Source: an uncultured Flavobacteriales bacterium (GTDB lineage Bacteria; Bacteroidota; Bacteroidia; Palsa-965). From it: DNA of 33,439 nt. This document shows positions 7,702 to 30,656 of this stretch, in pieces; the first letter of the stretch is position 1, and every line of letters starts with the position of its first letter. The position numbers and the translations under genes were made by a program. The stretch is taken from positions 1 through 33,439 of the forward strand of contig CAIQQJ010000098.1 of assembly GCA_903873905.1 (NCBI GenBank). The letters run 5' to 3'. The notes under the pieces were generated by a model that saw only the letters and a list, made by a program, of their open reading frames with translations, ran no database searches and had not been told where the DNA came from.

Positions 7702-10700
7702 GTGTTCCCTAAAAGCATTATTTTGAAACAGCGTTTACCTGCTTTCATTTTGTTTATGTTTTTTGCGTCATCGCTTTTTGCGACGGACGTGGATGGGCGA
7801 TTTTGGGTTGGAGGTTCTGGGAAATGGAATGATACAAAACATTGGGCAGCTATTCAAGGTGGTGCAGGTGGTGCAACAATTCCCACATTAAATGATGTTG
7901 TTTTTCTGGGCTTGAGTGGGAATGGTATTTCCAATGATTCCATTCAAATTGAAGGAACTGCAAGCTGTGGAAGGCTTGTGTTTGGCAAAGACATTATCCC
8001 AAATTACGATCCTAATTCACAGGGGACTTACAATACAGTTGTGTTATTAGGCAACGGTGAAATTCAGATAAATGGCTCACTCACCATTCGTGAAAAATTC
8101 GATGATCATTTTACGGGGATCTGGAAATTTCAGAATAGACTTTCGTCTTTGCGCGATAACAATGCTGTTTCCACAATTTCGGCCCCTTCGCATATATTTC
8201 CAGGGAAGGTTATTTTTGAATCGCCCGAGTCTTCTGATTGGAGCAATTCCTTTGTCATAGCAGAAGAGTTGTATGTCAATAATCAAATTGAGATTCAAAA
8301 AAATGCAAAATTATTTTTTGATAATCATGCAAAACTTGCTGCGATAAATTTTATAGTTAATGAAGGAGCTGAAGTAAATAAAAATAAAGCGGACTTTGTT
8401 GTAAGTGGAAATTCACAGCGCAATGCAAACCCTCAATCTCCCCAATCACATACGGTCACCACAATCGTTACCCCTAATCTTTGTAATGGACAATGTATCG
8501 CAACTGCTCAAGCAATTGTGGTTGGAGGATCTGGAAATTTTAGTTATCAGTGGAGTAATACACAAACCACGCAAACAGCAACCGGTCTTTGTGCTGGTAC
8601 TTATCTTGTGGTTGTTACCGATAATGTCAATGGTGATCAGGTTCCCGCATTTGCAATTGTAACGGATCCTCCTCCTTTGATTATTTTCTTCTCTACTATT
8701 TCCCCACTCTGTAATGGACAGTGCAACGGCTCAAGCAGTGCATCTGCTGCTGGAGGTACGCCTGGCTATACCTATTTGTGGTTGCCAGGAGGTCAAACTA
8801 CTTCTACCATTACGAATCAATGTACAGGAACTTATACGTTGACTGTGACAGATGTCAATGGATGTTCAGTTACCCAGAATTCTCTTATAACACAACCTGC
8901 AGTTTTAATTCCAAATGGAAGCAGATCAAACGTTACGTGTTTCGCAGCTTGTAATGGTTCTGCATCAGTTGCTCCAAGTGGAGGAACGGGTCCCTACACA
9001 TATTCTTGGGCGCCTGGCGGACAAACAACCAATAGCATTTCACCTCTTTGTCCAGGTGGATATACATGTACTGTTACGGACTCTCATAATTGTACAACTA
9101 CTTATTCAACTCAAATTACGCAGCCAACATTCTTAAGTGTTAGCATCAGTCATACAAATGTATTATGCAATGCTGCTTGTAATGGAACAGCAACTAGTAC
9201 TGTAACAGGTGGAATAGCACCTTATACTTATTTATGGTCGCCCGGCGCACAAACAACTCCAAATCTTGGAGGCATGTGTGCAGGAACCTATACACTTACT
9301 GTAACAGATGCAAATGGGTGTACAGCTACAAATCAGGTTGTCATTACACAACCTTCTGCTTTAGTTGTTGCACCTACTGGCATTAATGTAAATTGTTTTG
9401 GTTCTTGTAATGGATCTGCAATTGCAAATGCATCTGGTGGCACACCAATCTATACATACTCATGGGCTCCAAGTGGAGGAACAGGTGCAACAGCATCGAG
9501 CCTTTGTCCTGCAACTTATACAGTAACGGTCACAGATGCGAATGGATGTCAGGGTAGTGGACAAATTATTATAACACAACCTACACAATTGCTGTCAAAT
9601 TCTTCTGGAACGAATGTTACCTGTAATGGATTTTGCAATGGTACTGCAACTGCAAACGCTGTTGGTGGAATCGGTCCTTACACTTACAATTGGATGCCAG
9701 GAAATATTAATTCACAAACCATTTCTTCTTTGTGTCCTGGGTCTTATACTGTTACTGTTCATGATGCAAATAATTGTACTTCAACAGGAACAGTTATTAT
9801 TACACAACCGCCACTTTTACAAACAGGAGTTACTTCAACAAACGTAGCCTGTAATTCCGGATGCAATGGAACAGCAACTTCAAATCCAACTGGTGGTGTT
9901 GGTCCTTACACTTACAATTGGGCACCTGGAGGACAAACCACAAATTCGATCAATAGTCTTTGTCCTGGAACATATACACTCACAGTTACAGATGCCAATG
10001 GTTGTATTCAAACACAAAACGTTACAATTACACAACCTAATCCACTTGTTGTAACAATAAATGCAATTCAAATTTCTTGTAATAGTTCATGTGATGGATC
10101 AGCAGCTGCAGTTGTTTCGGGAGGCTCTCCGCCATTTACATATTTATGGTCACCTGGAGGCGAGACAACCTCTTCTATTAGTAATTTGTGTGCAGGAACT
10201 TATACTGTTCAAGTAACTGATGCAAATGGTTGTGTGAATACTGCAACGGTAACAATGGTGCAACCAACAGTATTGACATTAATACCTTCAGTAACAAATA
10301 CCAGTTGTAATGGAAGTTGTAATGGAAGCGCTGCAGTTGCAACTTCGGGTGGTACAGCACCCTATACTTATTTGTGGGCACCTGGTGGACAAACAACATC
10401 CTCAATCAATTCCCTTTGTGCAGGATCCTATACAGTTACTGTAAATGATGCTGGAAGTTGTTCTAACACCGCTACTATTATTGTAACACAACCTGCACCT
10501 TTAAATGCTGGTGTTACATCAAATAATGTTTCCTGTAATGGAGGTTGCAATGGAACAGCAGCGTCAAATCCAACAGGTGGAACAGGACCTTATACTTTTC
10601 AATGGTTACCAGGAGGGCAAACAACAAACAGTATCAATGGCCTTTGTCCTGCAACCTATACTTGCATTGTTACTGATGCAAATGGATGTTCAATAAATCA

Positions 10701-13700
10701 ACAAGTAAACATTACGCAACCTTCCCCACTTTCCGCGATTATTACTGCAACAACTGCAAGTTGTGGTGTTAATAATGGAACAGCAACAGTTTCTGTTAGT
10801 GGAGGAACGGCGCCCTATGCTTATTTCTGGACACCAACTAATCAAACAAATCCAACTGCTACGAATCTTGCATTGGGAAGTTATACTGTTACTGTAACGG
10901 ATGCAGCAGGATGTACAACAACCGCAACTTGTACAATTGTTCAAGTTGTAAATATTATCGTTACAAGCTCAACAACAAATCTTACCTGTTTCAGTTCGTG
11001 TGATGGTGTTGCAAGTGCGAATGCTGCTGGAGGAACAACTCCGTACACGTATGTCTGGATGCCTGGCAGTTTTGTTACACAAACAATTTCTGGATTATGT
11101 GCAGGTTCTTATACTGTTATTGTTACAGATGCAAATGGTTGTTTCAATACTTCAACAGTAACATTTACAGACCCTCTTGCATTAGTAGCAACATCAACAA
11201 TTATTAATGCAAGTTGTAATGGCTTCTGTAATGGGTCTGCAACAATAAGTCCAAGTGGAGGAACGGGAGTTTATTCTTATTTGTGGGCTCCAGGAGGGCA
11301 AACGACTGCAACCGTAAATGGATTGTGTGCAGGATCTTATACGGTTACAGCATCTGATGTAAATAATTGTACCGTTACATTAACGGTTACGATTACAGAG
11401 CCATCTCTTGTTGTTGCAAATTCTGTTGTAGTTCCAGCGAACTGTACGCTTTGTGATGGAAGTATTACTGCAAATCCATCGGGAGGTACAGGACCTTATA
11501 CTTATTCTTGGGCACCAGGAGGACAAACTACACAAACCATTTCGAATCTTTGTCCTGGGATTTATACTGTTACAATTACTGATGCAACTTCTTGTTCGGT
11601 TATTACTCCAATTGCAGTTAGTAATTTGAGCGGACCAACTGTTGTTGCTTCGTCGACAAACACAAATTGTAATTTGGCTTGTAATGGAACCGGAACCGCA
11701 ACTGTAACGGGAGGAGCGGCCCCATTTACTTATGACTGGACGCCAGGAAACCCTGCAGGAGATGGAACACCAAGTGTTACGGGTTTGTGTGCGGGAACTT
11801 TTTTCTGCCAAGTGACAGATGCTATTGGGTGCGTTACTTTTGCAAGTATTGTTATAACACAACCTCCAGTCTTAATAGTAACGGCAACTATTGTCGATGA
11901 AAATTGCACGGGGAATAGCAACGGAAGTATTACCGCAAATCCTTCAGGAGGAACAGGACCTTATACTTATTTGTGGGCACCTGGTGGGCAAATAACACAA
12001 ACTATATCTGGTCAAACAGCAGGAACATATTCAGTAACTGTTACGGATGCGAATGGTTGTTCTTTATTACAACAATTTACAATTAATCAGCCAGTGGCAC
12101 TTTCAGCCACCATTGCATTTACTAACGTTATTTGTAATGGTGCTTGCAATGGAACTGCAAGTCTGACAATGGTGGGGGGGACAGGTCCTTTCACCTACAG
12201 TTGGTCTTCGGGGCAAGGAACTTCTGCTGTAGCAAACCTTTGCGCTGGATCGTATACAGTTGATATTACAGATGCAAATGGATGTACTTCACAGCAAACC
12301 GTTATAATTACTGAACCGACTTTGCTTTCGTCTTCAATTGTTTCAACAAATGCATCATGTAATGGAATTTGTGATGGAACAGCAACAGTAACTGCAGTTG
12401 GTGGTATTCCAGGTTACACCTATACATGGTCGCCAGGCGGTGGAACGACACCGTTTGTAAATGGATTATGTGCTGGCGCATATTCCGCAATCACTACAGA
12501 TTTGAATGGATGTACATCGGTTTCTTCTGTAATTATTTTACAACCATCTGCAATCGTTCTTTCAGCAAGTAGTGGACCTCTTAGTTGTTTTGGGAATTGT
12601 AATGGTGTTGCTTCGGTAATTGCCTCTGGAGGTTCACCAGGATACACTTACAATTGGGCTCCAGGCGGACAAACAACTCCAGTAGCAACAGCTCTTTGTG
12701 CAGGAATTTATACGGTAACTGTAAATGATTTAAATGGTTGTTCGCAAAATGTTAGTACAACAGTTATTCAACCATTGTTATTACAATCCAACACTTCTTT
12801 CACAAGTCCAATTTGTAGTAACGCTTGTGATGGAACGGCAACTGCAAATCCTGTTGGTGGAACAGGGCCATATAATTACTTGTGGGCACCTGGCGGACAA
12901 ACAACATCAACGATTACAAATCTTTGTGCTGGAACATACACAGTCACGGTTCATGATGCAAATGGTTGTATTGATATACAACAGGTAATTGTAACCCCTG
13001 CTGCAGGAATGTCAGCTGTATCTGCAACTGCCCCTGCAAGTTGTGGAAATTGTGATGGCACAATAAATATTAGTCCTTCAGGAGGAATTGCACCATACAC
13101 TTATTCATGGACTGGTGGTTTACCACCAACTGCCAATCAGATAAATGTTTGTCCAGGAGTATATGTGGTTACGATTACAGACGCTGGCTCTTGTACAGGC
13201 ACGTTTACAGTGGTCATAAATAATTCTGGCGGACCAACTGGCGAAACTGTTTTGGCAACAAATGTTACTTGTCCTGCATCTTGCAATGGAACGGCATTGG
13301 TAACTCCTATTGGAGGAACTGCCCCTTATACTTATTTATGGATTCCTGGTGGGCAAACAGTCAATAATCTTGTAGGTATGTGTGCTGGAAACTATTTCCT
13401 TCAAGTAACAGATGCAAACGGATGTATTCGTTTTTCTCCAGTGATAATAAATTCTCCGCCTCCAATTGTTGCAAACCCTTTTGTTACCAATGCAACATGC
13501 ACGGGTATTTGTGATGGTGCAATTTTGGTTACACCAACCGGAGGTACGGGACCCTATTCTTACAGTTGGGCTCCAAGTGGACAAACAACACCTTCAATAA
13601 ATGGTTTATGCGTGGGCTCGTATGTGGTAACCATTACAGATGCAAATGGGTGTTTGCAAAACTCTACGTCAGTTATAAACCCATGGAATTCTTTGTCTGC

Positions 13701-16047
13701 GTCAATTACAGCTGTCGGACCCACATGTGGAAATTCTTGTGATGGTTTTGCTGTTGCAAATATTATTTCTGGTACAGCACCATTTACTTTCAATTGGTCG
13801 GATCCTCTTGGACAAAGTTCTGCAACGGCTAGCGGTTTGTGTGCTGGAAATTATATGGTGAATATTTCTGATTTGGTGGGATGTAATGTGTCCTTGGCTG
13901 CAATATTAAATAGTCCATTGCCAATTATTATTAATCCCGTCATTACATCTACAACATGTGGTCAATGCAATGGTGCGGCAACTTTAAATGCAAGCGGAGG
14001 AACAGCTCCTTACACTTACTCATGGAGTAATGGTGCAACAGCAAGCGCAGTTAATGGTCTTTGTGCAGGAGTGTATTCCGTTATTGTTTCAGATTCCGCA
14101 GGATGTTCAATGACGTTTACTATTTCAATCAGCAGTAGTGGGGGACCAACGGCTGCAAATGGAACTGTGATCAACACTTCTTGTAATGGAATTTGCGATG
14201 GATCAATTACTGTTGCTCCAACAGGAGGAATTCTTCCTTATTCCTATTTGTGGTTGCCGAGTGGACAAACAACACCAACCGTAAACAGTCTTTGCGCAGG
14301 AAATTACATTGTTCAAATTAGAGATTCTGCAGGTTGTATTTTAACACAAAACTTTACAATTGCCTCTCCAACTGCAATTCTTCCAAATCAATTGATTACC
14401 AATACTGATTGTGGTGTTTGTTCAGGTTCCATTGTATTAAATACATCTGGCGGAACAGGACCTTATACTTATGCTTGGGCTCCAGGCGGACAAACTACTT
14501 CTACGATCGCCAGTTTATGTGCTGGATTGTATTCGGTAACAATTACGGATGCAACTGGTTGTACTCAAATACAAACGATCCCCGTGAGCAATTCCAATAG
14601 TGGAATGATTTTGACTGCGAACGGTACTGACATATCATGTAATGGAAGTTGCAACGGAACAGCAATAGTGACAGTTGTTGGAGGAAACTCCCCTTATACT
14701 TATGTATGGAGCAATGCGGCAACAAATGACACCATCAACGGTTTATGTGCGGGAAACTTTATTGTTCAAGCGACAGATGCAACGGGTTGTGTAAGTACTT
14801 CGTCCGTTACAATTGTTCAGCCAACGTTGCTCGCAGGTTCCTTCCCTTTCGTGCAGGATGAATTATGTGCTAATGCTTGTAATGGATTCATCACTTCAAT
14901 TCCTTCAGGAGGAACACTGCCATATGTTTATGTTTGGACACCAACAGGACAAATAACACAAACGGCAACTAATCTTTGTGCAGGAATTTATTCTGTAACA
15001 GTGACCGATGCTAATGGTTGTACTATAGTACAAAGTGACACAATTGTTTCACCTATCGTTTTGATATTAGCCCCTCCTGTAATTACGGATGCAACATGTA
15101 ACAACTCCCTCGATGGTGCAATTGACATTACAGTTACTGGTGGTGGATTGCCATACAATTATTCATGGACTGGGCCAGGAGCCTTCACCGCAAATTCAGA
15201 AGATTTGACTGGTGTGCTTTCGGGCTCATACACGATAACAATTACTGATGCTAATGGTTGTTCCGTTACAGATACAATTGTAATTAATGCATTGACAGCA
15301 GTGATTGCGAATGCAGGAAATGATACTACCTTCTGTGTTGGCGGAGCATTGACGCTTGATGGTTCAGGAAGTTCAAATGTGACTTCTTATCAGTGGATTC
15401 AATTGCCATCAAACACTATTGTTGGTAATAACGTGACAACTGTTGTGATTCCAGTTGGAGGAGTAACTACTTATGTTTTGCTCGCAACAAATGGAGTTTG
15501 CACTTCTTCTGATACAGTTGTAGTTACGTCTTCCCCTGGGCCAGCAGCAAATGCAGGACCTGATCAAACAATTATTTCTGGAATGACCGCAACTCTTGGA
15601 GGAAGTCCAACAGGTCCTCCGGGTTCAACGTTTGCATGGGGTCCTTCATCAGGATTAGGAAATACTTCTTCTTCAAATCCAATCGCATCACCTGCGGGTA
15701 CTACAACTTATATAGTAATTGTTACAGATGCAAATGGTTGTGTGGGAAGTGATACTATGAATTTGAATGTTGTTCCTTCTATAAAATTCCCGAATGGATT
15801 TACTCCAAATGCTGATGGAACAAATGATATTTGGGAAATTGATAATATTCAACTCTTCGTTCATTGTCAAGTTGAAGTTTATAATAGATGGGGAGAATTA
15901 TTGTTTAATTCTACCGGATACAATATCCCATTTGATGGAAGATATGATGGGAAAGATCTTCCTGTCGGAACCTATTATTACATTATCAAATTGAATGACC
16001 CGCTATTCCCGGATGTTTATACTGGTCCTTTAACTATTATGCGATAA
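7702..16047 (+). CDS. Giant SprB-like repeat adhesin with T9SS type B sorting domain
   Basis: A 2,781-residue secreted protein. A signal peptide ends near residue 27 (SSLFA/TDVDG). Residues ~30-249 form a beta-rich N-terminal region (RFWVGGSGKWNDTKHW) of the kind found at the front of Bacteroidota surface proteins. Residues 250-2535 hold 30 SprB-type repeats of about 76 residues (CNGxCNG, GGTxPYTYxW, PGGQTT, LCAGTYTVTVTDANGC, ITQP). Two PKD/Ig-like modules follow (2536-2693), then the gliding-motility-associated C-terminal sorting domain (about 2694-2781: FPNGFTPNADGTND, VYNRWGE, DLPVGTYYY). By family knowledge such proteins cross the outer membrane by T9SS and act as mobile or static cell-surface adhesins. 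No ATG start exists: GTG at 7702 directly follows an in-frame TGA, and TTG at 7723 is an alternative giving a compact signal peptide. The SprF-like partner is 11 bp downstream. Confidence 0.93.
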   Translation: MFPKSIILKQRLPAFILFMFFASSLFATDVDGRFWVGGSGKWNDTKHWAAIQGGAGGATIPTLNDVVFLGLSGNGISNDSIQIEGTASCGRLVFGKDIIPNYDPNSQGTYNTVVLLGNGEIQINGSLTIREKFDDHFTGIWKFQNRLSSLRDNNAVSTISAPSHIFPGKVIFESPESSDWSNSFVIAEELYVNNQIEIQKNAKLFFDNHAKLAAINFIVNEGAEVNKNKADFVVSGNSQRNANPQSPQSHTVTTIVTPNLCNGQCIATAQAIVVGGSGNFSYQWSNTQTTQTATGLCAGTYLVVVTDNVNGDQVPAFAIVTDPPPLIIFFSTISPLCNGQCNGSSSASAAGGTPGYTYLWLPGGQTTSTITNQCTGTYTLTVTDVNGCSVTQNSLITQPAVLIPNGSRSNVTCFAACNGSASVAPSGGTGPYTYSWAPGGQTTNSISPLCPGGYTCTVTDSHNCTTTYSTQITQPTFLSVSISHTNVLCNAACNGTATSTVTGGIAPYTYLWSPGAQTTPNLGGMCAGTYTLTVTDANGCTATNQVVITQPSALVVAPTGINVNCFGSCNGSAIANASGGTPIYTYSWAPSGGTGATASSLCPATYTVTVTDANGCQGSGQIIITQPTQLLSNSSGTNVTCNGFCNGTATANAVGGIGPYTYNWMPGNINSQTISSLCPGSYTVTVHDANNCTSTGTVIITQPPLLQTGVTSTNVACNSGCNGTATSNPTGGVGPYTYNWAPGGQTTNSINSLCPGTYTLTVTDANGCIQTQNVTITQPNPLVVTINAIQISCNSSCDGSAAAVVSGGSPPFTYLWSPGGETTSSISNLCAGTYTVQVTDANGCVNTATVTMVQPTVLTLIPSVTNTSCNGSCNGSAAVATSGGTAPYTYLWAPGGQTTSSINSLCAGSYTVTVNDAGSCSNTATIIVTQPAPLNAGVTSNNVSCNGGCNGTAASNPTGGTGPYTFQWLPGGQTTNSINGLCPATYTCIVTDANGCSINQQVNITQPSPLSAIITATTASCGVNNGTATVSVSGGTAPYAYFWTPTNQTNPTATNLALGSYTVTVTDAAGCTTTATCTIVQVVNIIVTSSTTNLTCFSSCDGVASANAAGGTTPYTYVWMPGSFVTQTISGLCAGSYTVIVTDANGCFNTSTVTFTDPLALVATSTIINASCNGFCNGSATISPSGGTGVYSYLWAPGGQTTATVNGLCAGSYTVTASDVNNCTVTLTVTITEPSLVVANSVVVPANCTLCDGSITANPSGGTGPYTYSWAPGGQTTQTISNLCPGIYTVTITDATSCSVITPIAVSNLSGPTVVASSTNTNCNLACNGTGTATVTGGAAPFTYDWTPGNPAGDGTPSVTGLCAGTFFCQVTDAIGCVTFASIVITQPPVLIVTATIVDENCTGNSNGSITANPSGGTGPYTYLWAPGGQITQTISGQTAGTYSVTVTDANGCSLLQQFTINQPVALSATIAFTNVICNGACNGTASLTMVGGTGPFTYSWSSGQGTSAVANLCAGSYTVDITDANGCTSQQTVIITEPTLLSSSIVSTNASCNGICDGTATVTAVGGIPGYTYTWSPGGGTTPFVNGLCAGAYSAITTDLNGCTSVSSVIILQPSAIVLSASSGPLSCFGNCNGVASVIASGGSPGYTYNWAPGGQTTPVATALCAGIYTVTVNDLNGCSQNVSTTVIQPLLLQSNTSFTSPICSNACDGTATANPVGGTGPYNYLWAPGGQTTSTITNLCAGTYTVTVHDANGCIDIQQVIVTPAAGMSAVSATAPASCGNCDGTINISPSGGIAPYTYSWTGGLPPTANQINVCPGVYVVTITDAGSCTGTFTVVINNSGGPTGETVLATNVTCPASCNGTALVTPIGGTAPYTYLWIPGGQTVNNLVGMCAGNYFLQVTDANGCIRFSPVIINSPPPIVANPFVTNATCTGICDGAILVTPTGGTGPYSYSWAPSGQTTPSINGLCVGSYVVTITDANGCLQNSTSVINPWNSLSASITAVGPTCGNSCDGFAVANIISGTAPFTFNWSDPLGQSSATASGLCAGNYMVNISDLVGCNVSLAAILNSPLPIIINPVITSTTCGQCNGAATLNASGGTAPYTYSWSNGATASAVNGLCAGVYSVIVSDSAGCSMTFTISISSSGGPTAANGTVINTSCNGICDGSITVAPTGGILPYSYLWLPSGQTTPTVNSLCAGNYIVQIRDSAGCILTQNFTIASPTAILPNQLITNTDCGVCSGSIVLNTSGGTGPYTYAWAPGGQTTSTIASLCAGLYSVTITDATGCTQIQTIPVSNSNSGMILTANGTDISCNGSCNGTAIVTVVGGNSPYTYVWSNAATNDTINGLCAGNFIVQATDATGCVSTSSVTIVQPTLLAGSFPFVQDELCANACNGFITSIPSGGTLPYVYVWTPTGQITQTATNLCAGIYSVTVTDANGCTIVQSDTIVSPIVLILAPPVITDATCNNSLDGAIDITVTGGGLPYNYSWTGPGAFTANSEDLTGVLSGSYTITITDANGCSVTDTIVINALTAVIANAGNDTTFCVGGALTLDGSGSSNVTSYQWIQLPSNTIVGNNVTTVVIPVGGVTTYVLLATNGVCTSSDTVVVTSSPGPAANAGPDQTIISGMTATLGGSPTGPPGSTFAWGPSSGLGNTSSSNPIASPAGTTTYIVIVTDANGCVGSDTMNLNVVPSIKFPNGFTPNADGTNDIWEIDNIQLFVHCQVEVYNRWGELLFNSTGYNIPFDGRYDGKDLPVGTYYYIIKLNDPLFPDVYTGPLTIMR
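8449..15306 (+). repeat. Thirty tandem ~228-bp coding repeats (SprB repeat domains)
   Basis: 6,858 bp encode 30 consecutive units averaging 76.2 residues. Most units carry four cysteines: Cys1 and Cys2 in CNGxC, Cys3 in LCAGTY and Cys4 in DANGC. The units are diverged at DNA level, so they are an old array rather than a recent expansion. Units 14, 21, 25 and 27 have CxxC instead of CxxxC and exit through an SGGPT-like linker. Units 11, 16 and 30 lack both Cys2 and Cys3. Unit 1 lacks Cys4. Confidence 0.93.
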
Positions 16048-22632: not shown

Positions 22633-22759
22633 ATTAGTAATGTGCTAATGTGTCGATATGCTGATGTGCTGATGAAAAAAACATTTTGACTTTTGGTCTC
22701 TCGATTCTTATGGAGTGGTAATTCTTTTTGCGTGAGGGATGGAGGTATTGTTGGAGCTC

Positions 22760-22786
22760 TTTTTCCCAATTTTTCATTGGGAAAAA
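22760..22786. repeat. Hairpin inside dispersed element copy 1
   Basis: TTTTTCCCAAT and ATTGGGAAAAA form a perfect 11-bp inverted repeat around a 5-nt loop. It could end transcription from the CotH genes. Confidence 0.6.
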
Positions 22787-22806
22787 AGCGACTACCGAGA
22801 GCCCGA

Positions 22807-22838
22807 CCCCAATCCCAACAGTACTGTTGGGATTGGGG
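22807..22838. repeat. Perfect 32-bp palindrome inside dispersed element copy 1
   Basis: CCCCAATCCCAACAGT is followed directly by its exact reverse complement, a 16-bp-arm palindrome without spacer. Confidence 0.85.
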
Positions 22839-22887
22839 ACACGCCCAAAGAAAATTGGTAATTGGTAATCTGATAATCGGTAATTAA

Positions 22888-30537: not shown

Positions 30538-30656
30538 GGGCGTGTCCCAAGGGTAGGGCTATCCACTGCAAGTCCTCTCCCAACCCCACCAATTCTGTTG
30601 GGGGATCCGGGCTTTCTCCCGAATGGACCACTATGTGGCACTGCTATCCCTCACGC
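30538..30656 (+). repeat. Dispersed intergenic element, copy 2
   Basis: Opens with GGGCGTGTCCC and closes with ATCCCTCACGC (119 bp), the same ends as the inverted copy at 22730-22846. Inside are AGGGCTATCC and CCGGGCTTTC, resembling the central TCGGGCTCTC of copy 1, and the hairpin arms CCCAAC (30579-30584) and GTTGGG (30597-30602). CCACTATGTGG near 30628 is a small palindrome. Two short ORFs over this segment have no coding character. Confidence 0.75.

Follow-up and report, generated by a model that had tools for sequence, protein, structure and literature searches.

The two intergenic repeats studied here, which lie in a window of 33,439 nucleotides (the whole stretch of DNA analysed) from an uncultured Flavobacteriales bacterium, are copies of an element that is probably a non-autonomous mobile DNA repeat of the REP/MITE type, with an architecture of its own, a relationship to the Rfam family Flavo-1 (RF01705) and exchangeable hairpins. 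Searches of the window's genome with the end pattern GGGCGTGNCC-N(50-110)-ATCCCTCACGC gave 74 matches (reversed pattern, 0) and 76 when a wider gap was allowed, with copies of about 68–131 bp, while a looser search of 400 kb, a non-random part of the genome chosen to include its RAYT gene, returned 20 copies, which extrapolates to ~200 genome-wide. The element sits between genes in both orientations and at high copy number. An earlier note on this DNA had proposed that the repeats belong to a dispersed family in which the ends are kept while the hairpins vary, and the 74–76 copies (control 0) bear this out, the 11-mer ends being neither restricted to the two copies in the window nor inconsistently spaced. 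The recurrence in other Bacteroidota that the note had put forward also proved correct, since the pattern was present in 27 of 395 Bacteroidota genomes (control 0), with Flavobacterium, Pedobacter, Chitinophagaceae, Saprospiraceae, Cytophagales and Cryomorphaceae among the named records. One copy used as a query gave no match in plasmid and phage collections, and literature searches, both with exact strings and in general terms, found nothing on the element. It was also seen on 20 IMG/VR viral contigs (L201–L220) and in records named Aureimonas (L140), Xenophilus (L118), Gemmatimonadetes (L170) and Spirochaetales (L188), the records of other phyla being likely the result of contamination or misbinning.

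Read on the GGGCGTG strand, the element has the layout GGGCGTG, hairpin 1, (T)CGGGCTWTCCGYTNC, hairpin 2, TCCGCTNCWATCCCTCACGC, usually with TTT before it and (A/G)AA after it. The frame, which could fold on itself, comprises a terminal stem (GCGTG/CACGC), inner GGGCT../..ATCCC blocks and repeated TCCGCTNC blocks. The two copies in the window (Table 1) are in opposite orientation and agree exactly at their ends (GGGCGTGTCCC and ATCCCTCACGC) and also in a GGGCT.TC block, but differ elsewhere, as had been described from the sequence. The description of two perfect hairpins applies to copy 1 only, because copy 2 folds little better than its shuffles (z -1.1), whereas the predicted DNA fold of copy 1, with two strong hairpins, reached -30.5 kcal/mol (z -7.0; equalled by 0 of 200 shuffles).

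Table 1. Positions in the window of the two element copies and their parts.
Feature	Position	Strand	Basis
Copy 1, whole, 117 bp	22730..22846	-	End-pattern match on C98; Flavo-1 25 bits, cut-off 42
Copy 1 left end GGGCGTG, terminal stem 5' side	22840..22846	-	Direct reading; kept in all aligned copies
Copy 1 hairpin 1, CCCCAATCCCAACA-GTAC-TGTTGGGATTGGGG	22807..22838	-	Fold z -7.0
Genome-specific palindrome CCCAACANNNNTGTTGGG inside copy 1 hairpin 1	within 22807..22838	-	99 in genome, control 0
Copy 1 hairpin 2, GCTTTTTTCCCAAT..ATTGGGAAAAAGAGC	22756..22789	-	Fold; inside Flavo-1 alignment
Copy 1 right end ATCCCTCACGC, terminal stem 3' side	22730..22740	-	Direct reading
Copy 2, whole, 119 bp	30538..30656	+	End-pattern match on C98; no Rfam match
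Copy 2 left end GGGCGTGTCCC	30538..30548	+	Direct reading
Copy 2 hairpin 1, shrunk to CCC-AA-GGG	30546..30553	+	Direct reading
Copy 2 hairpin 2 region, AAGTCC..GGGCTT class	30570..30614	+	Direct reading; class found across genera
Imperfect CCCAACCCC..GTTGGGGG within copy 2 hairpin 2 region	within 30570..30614	+	Direct reading
Copy 2 extra small palindrome CCACTATGTGG	30628..30638	+	Shared with some further own copies, e.g. L016, L021
Copy 2 right end ATCCCTCACGC	30646..30656	+	Direct reading

Hairpin 1 and the ATCTTT class of hairpin 2 conserve pairing, not sequence: own-arm pairing was 0.59 vs 0.33 for the inner arms of hairpin 1 and 0.72 vs 0.40 for the ATCTTT class, in each case above all 1000 arm shuffles. 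The AAGTCC class of hairpin 2, over the 6 nt tested, gave no signal (0.29 vs 0.31). The interiors fall into a few classes that are found in distant genera (AAGTCC..GGGCTT; TATATCTTTT..AAAAGGATA; CAATC..GATT; CTTTTACTCC..GGGGTAA; and others), and the palindrome CCCAACANNNNTGTTGGG, present in 34 of 63 of the genome's own elements, fills either hairpin slot and also occurs in Flavo-1-type elements. What is conserved at the ends is a stem and not strictly the letters, which qualifies the earlier description of them: in a rare variant both are exchanged together, from GGGCGTG..CACGC to GGGGTT..AACCC, a subfamily found 5 times among 150 Flavobacterium genomes, in 4 of them (control 0). The TTT/AAA flanks were considered as an extension of this stem and rejected, as they showed no covariation. 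In Flavobacterium copies (L045, L046, L049, L257 and others), many arms of hairpin 1 bear a long conserved insert, for example AAAAAGGCGC..GCGCCTTTTT; with its partly conserved tip, this insert is possibly a nested element.

Copy number has risen in the window's species, where one strict pattern gave 36 copies against 0–2 in six congeners (two of the six assemblies being 66–72% complete). At the site of copy 1, congener G543 has the same neighbouring genes (72–79% identity) and lacks the element, the matching stretches lying ~30 bp apart. The remaining intergenic region differs too, so that the site does not count as a base-exact empty one, and the congener comparison yielded none that was base-exact. 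No direct-repeat signal of a 2–8 nt target-site duplication was detected in 228 copies. The left flank carries TTT at 73–88% per position and the right flank is enriched in A, independently of the direction of the neighbouring genes. A second short repeat (TGCTAATGTG.CGATATGCTGATG) occupies 22636–22677 of the window, in the gap that separates copy 1 from the gene end, and similar stretches occur in congeners G542 and G543.

Interiors are replaced at fixed chromosomal sites. In ~26 Flavobacterium species the element lies between the genes for aspartate aminotransferase (aat) and a ferritin-like protein, after the aat terminator in most of those examined, and on the tree of the flanking genes 13 switches of interior class are needed, which is the maximum for the labels (27 labelled sequences, of which L171 is from a different downstream context, on a weakly resolved tree). 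Three species have GGGGTT..CTAACCC ends at this site, where the two sides of the terminal stem have changed in a compensatory way. One copy shared by the close pair G316/G170 differs between the two almost solely in hairpin 1. Other shared sites are the gap between the split metH genes, which is occupied in one Sphingobacteriaceae genome too, and the region upstream of ileS in genomes of Cyclobacteriaceae (at least 5). Such old sites common to several species (metH, ileS, aat) could reflect a host function, which counts against the mobile reading. An intrinsic terminator was rejected, as no T run follows the element on either strand in the flanks and, at the aat site, the element comes after the terminator. 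In two sequences from this site (L299, L304) the element contains or adjoins a MITE-like insert whose ends are AATGTCATTAAGTTAAGC..CTTAACTTAATGACATT, and in four others (L295, L296, L298, L303) aat and the ferritin-like gene are separated by ~1.2 kb of additional DNA that appears to be coding.

The core of the element is homologous to Flavo-1, which adds to the family reading of the earlier note, where that name does not appear. Against the covariance-model cut-off of 42 bits, copy 1 scored 25 bits and copy 2 gave no match, while the relative L047 passed with 46.3 bits and 10 matches above the cut-off were found elsewhere in the window's genome. The Flavo-1 core blocks around hairpin 2 are present, model positions 1–76 aligning in copy 1, L041, L023 and L038, and the matches to related copies fall on the strand opposite to the GGGCGTG reading. 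Flavo-1 (Weinberg et al. 2010, PMC2864571) resembles the element in the blocks GAUUGNAGCGGA around hairpin 2, in its Bacteroidetes range and in its high copy number. It differs in its ends (UAGCCC..GGGA vs GCGTGAGGG..GGGCACGCCC in the element) and has no hairpin 1, which is an extra hairpin of the element; moreover, it was listed as a probable RNA (PMC2864571), whereas the element is read here as DNA. Our literature search found no paper that describes Flavo-1 as mobile DNA. On our reading, Flavo-1 would not be a small-RNA gene but one sub-lineage within this DNA element.

The opposite view, that the element is a structured RNA, either the Flavo-1 small RNA or part of mRNA leaders, with transcription from the GCGTGAGGG strand and selection acting on the RNA fold, draws on the RF01705 matches just described, on the conserved pairing of the hairpins and on the ileS site of Cyclobacteriaceae, where the element lies just upstream in the same orientation, 3' of a promoter-like TATCTTTG motif. 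We consider it unlikely, as interior classes are replaced irrespective of phylogeny, tens of copies in one species face 0–2 in its congeners, and no RNA strand stands out. Orientation relative to genes, a point raised in the earlier note, showed no bias (tandem 44 vs 42; 62 vs 51 in a later count). In stems of at least 7 pairs (~1210 pairs), 21 G.T and 34 A.C mismatches gave no clear wobble asymmetry (tRNA control, 11 vs 2 of 132), the A.C excess leaning weakly toward the Flavo-1 strand; an early wobble excess for the GGGCGTG strand (108 vs 31) was discarded, as it came mainly from one conserved T.G pair. In the published F. psychrophilum transcriptome, Flavo-1 matches were sense or antisense indistinctly, without a consistent strand, and many lay outside transcribed regions (PMC9723704). 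The orientation, mismatch and transcriptome lines are indirect but concordant in favouring DNA over RNA.

As a mobile DNA repeat, the element can be compared with the REPs and BIMEs mobilised by RAYT (TnpA-REP; PMC8266576, PMC6006769), being likewise a high-copy, intergenic, palindromic and non-autonomous repeat for which no target duplication was found; some of its hairpin modules also match the palindrome flanking the RAYT gene and, to the eye, appear to carry a GTGG tag. In contrast to REPs, which have one tagged hairpin and flank the RAYT gene, the element is a frame of 70–130 bp with two exchangeable hairpins and its copies do not adjoin RAYT. CGTC-tagged REPs (PMC3733652) are similarly REP-like, have been reported from Bacteroidetes among other phyla and have had no dedicated transposase found for them, but unlike the element each consists of one stem of 8–9 bp that bears a CGTC tag and a short tail.

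The window's genome has one RAYT, a Y1_Tnp protein of 180 aa with the motifs NHIH, WQ and YIHSNP, like those of RAYT subclass 2.6 of PMC6006769. That the element is the canonical REP of this RAYT seems improbable to us, the link between the two running through hairpin modules and not through the element as a whole. The RAYT gene is flanked by GTGTCGGG..CCCGACAC palindromes (with GTGG ahead in one reading), and the same palindrome makes up hairpin 2 in 9 of 63 elements of this genome. In the 400 kb sample, 26 GC-rich palindromes lie outside elements, and those sharing a 9-mer with at least 5 elements were two stand-alone CCCAACA palindromes, one terminator-like hairpin and the three at RAYT, which are the only RAYT-type palindromes outside elements; this sharing is suggestive only, because the three palindromes at RAYT form a single family and the sample had been selected so as to contain this gene. 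The other genomes compared for palindrome sharing with RAYT have one or two elements each. A GT(A/G)G tag was noted by visual inspection on hairpin 2 modules that match the RAYT palindrome and is absent from most copies, and the element is longer than a REP. No copy flanks the genome's own RAYT, the nearest lying 2.4–2.9 kb away, and the RAYT genes examined in element-bearing genomes, those of Flavobacterium among them, are flanked by other repeats; several element-bearing genomes (e.g. G170, G218, G222, G316) had no RAYT match with the query used. RAYT was accordingly rejected as a neighbour of the element, and a REPtron built on the element ends is not supported, because RAYT genes carry other flanking repeats. 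The association with RAYT suggested by the earlier note thus survives in the palindrome that doubles as a hairpin module and fails for the gene's flanks. RAYTs of other Bacteroidota (L237, L238, L239, L242, L248, L252) have their own distinct flanking repeats, e.g. GCGCGGATTTGCAATCCGTGCC.

The search for a partner gene covered Y1-type genes and yielded no mobilising enzyme. An IS200-type tnpA adjoined the element at 2 of 239 loci (G540, element 39 bp after tnpA; G049, 182 bp) and was rejected as a partner, this frequency being judged compatible with chance. A MITE of a DDE-type insertion sequence, recognised by its terminal inverted repeats, would fit the short inverted ends (GGGCGTG/CACGC), the intergenic position and the high copy number, but was rejected as very unlikely for want of a 2–8 nt target-site duplication in 228 copies and in view of a terminal stem that can be replaced as a pair, which is unusual for an end read by its sequence.

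For the mobile DNA repeat that we favour, the rise in copy number, the structure and the replacement of interiors are direct results. Beyond them we infer a route of spread in which single-stranded copies would fold and a Y1/HUH-type enzyme, or another enzyme that leaves no target duplication, would cut and join them in trans. The exchange of hairpins between copies may proceed through this strand transfer or, alternatively, through gene conversion at hairpin-stalled forks. More tentatively, the element might be a phylum-wide DNA docking frame. In that case a conserved foldable scaffold, so far filed as an RNA (Flavo-1), would have its two hairpins swapped in the manner of cassettes at fixed positions of the chromosome, with RAYT-associated palindromes and further genome-specific ones as the supply. 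If the mobile DNA reading is right, an Rfam family of small RNAs to which no function is assigned would be better read as a mobile DNA repeat, which would change the annotation of many Bacteroidota genomes and explain transcript maps that lack a consistent strand. The fixed sites with swapped hairpins would also offer a direct test bed for the spread of REP-like palindromes, an unsolved question. Elsewhere in the window, one open reading frame on the plus strand (7702–16047) is very long, at 2781 aa.
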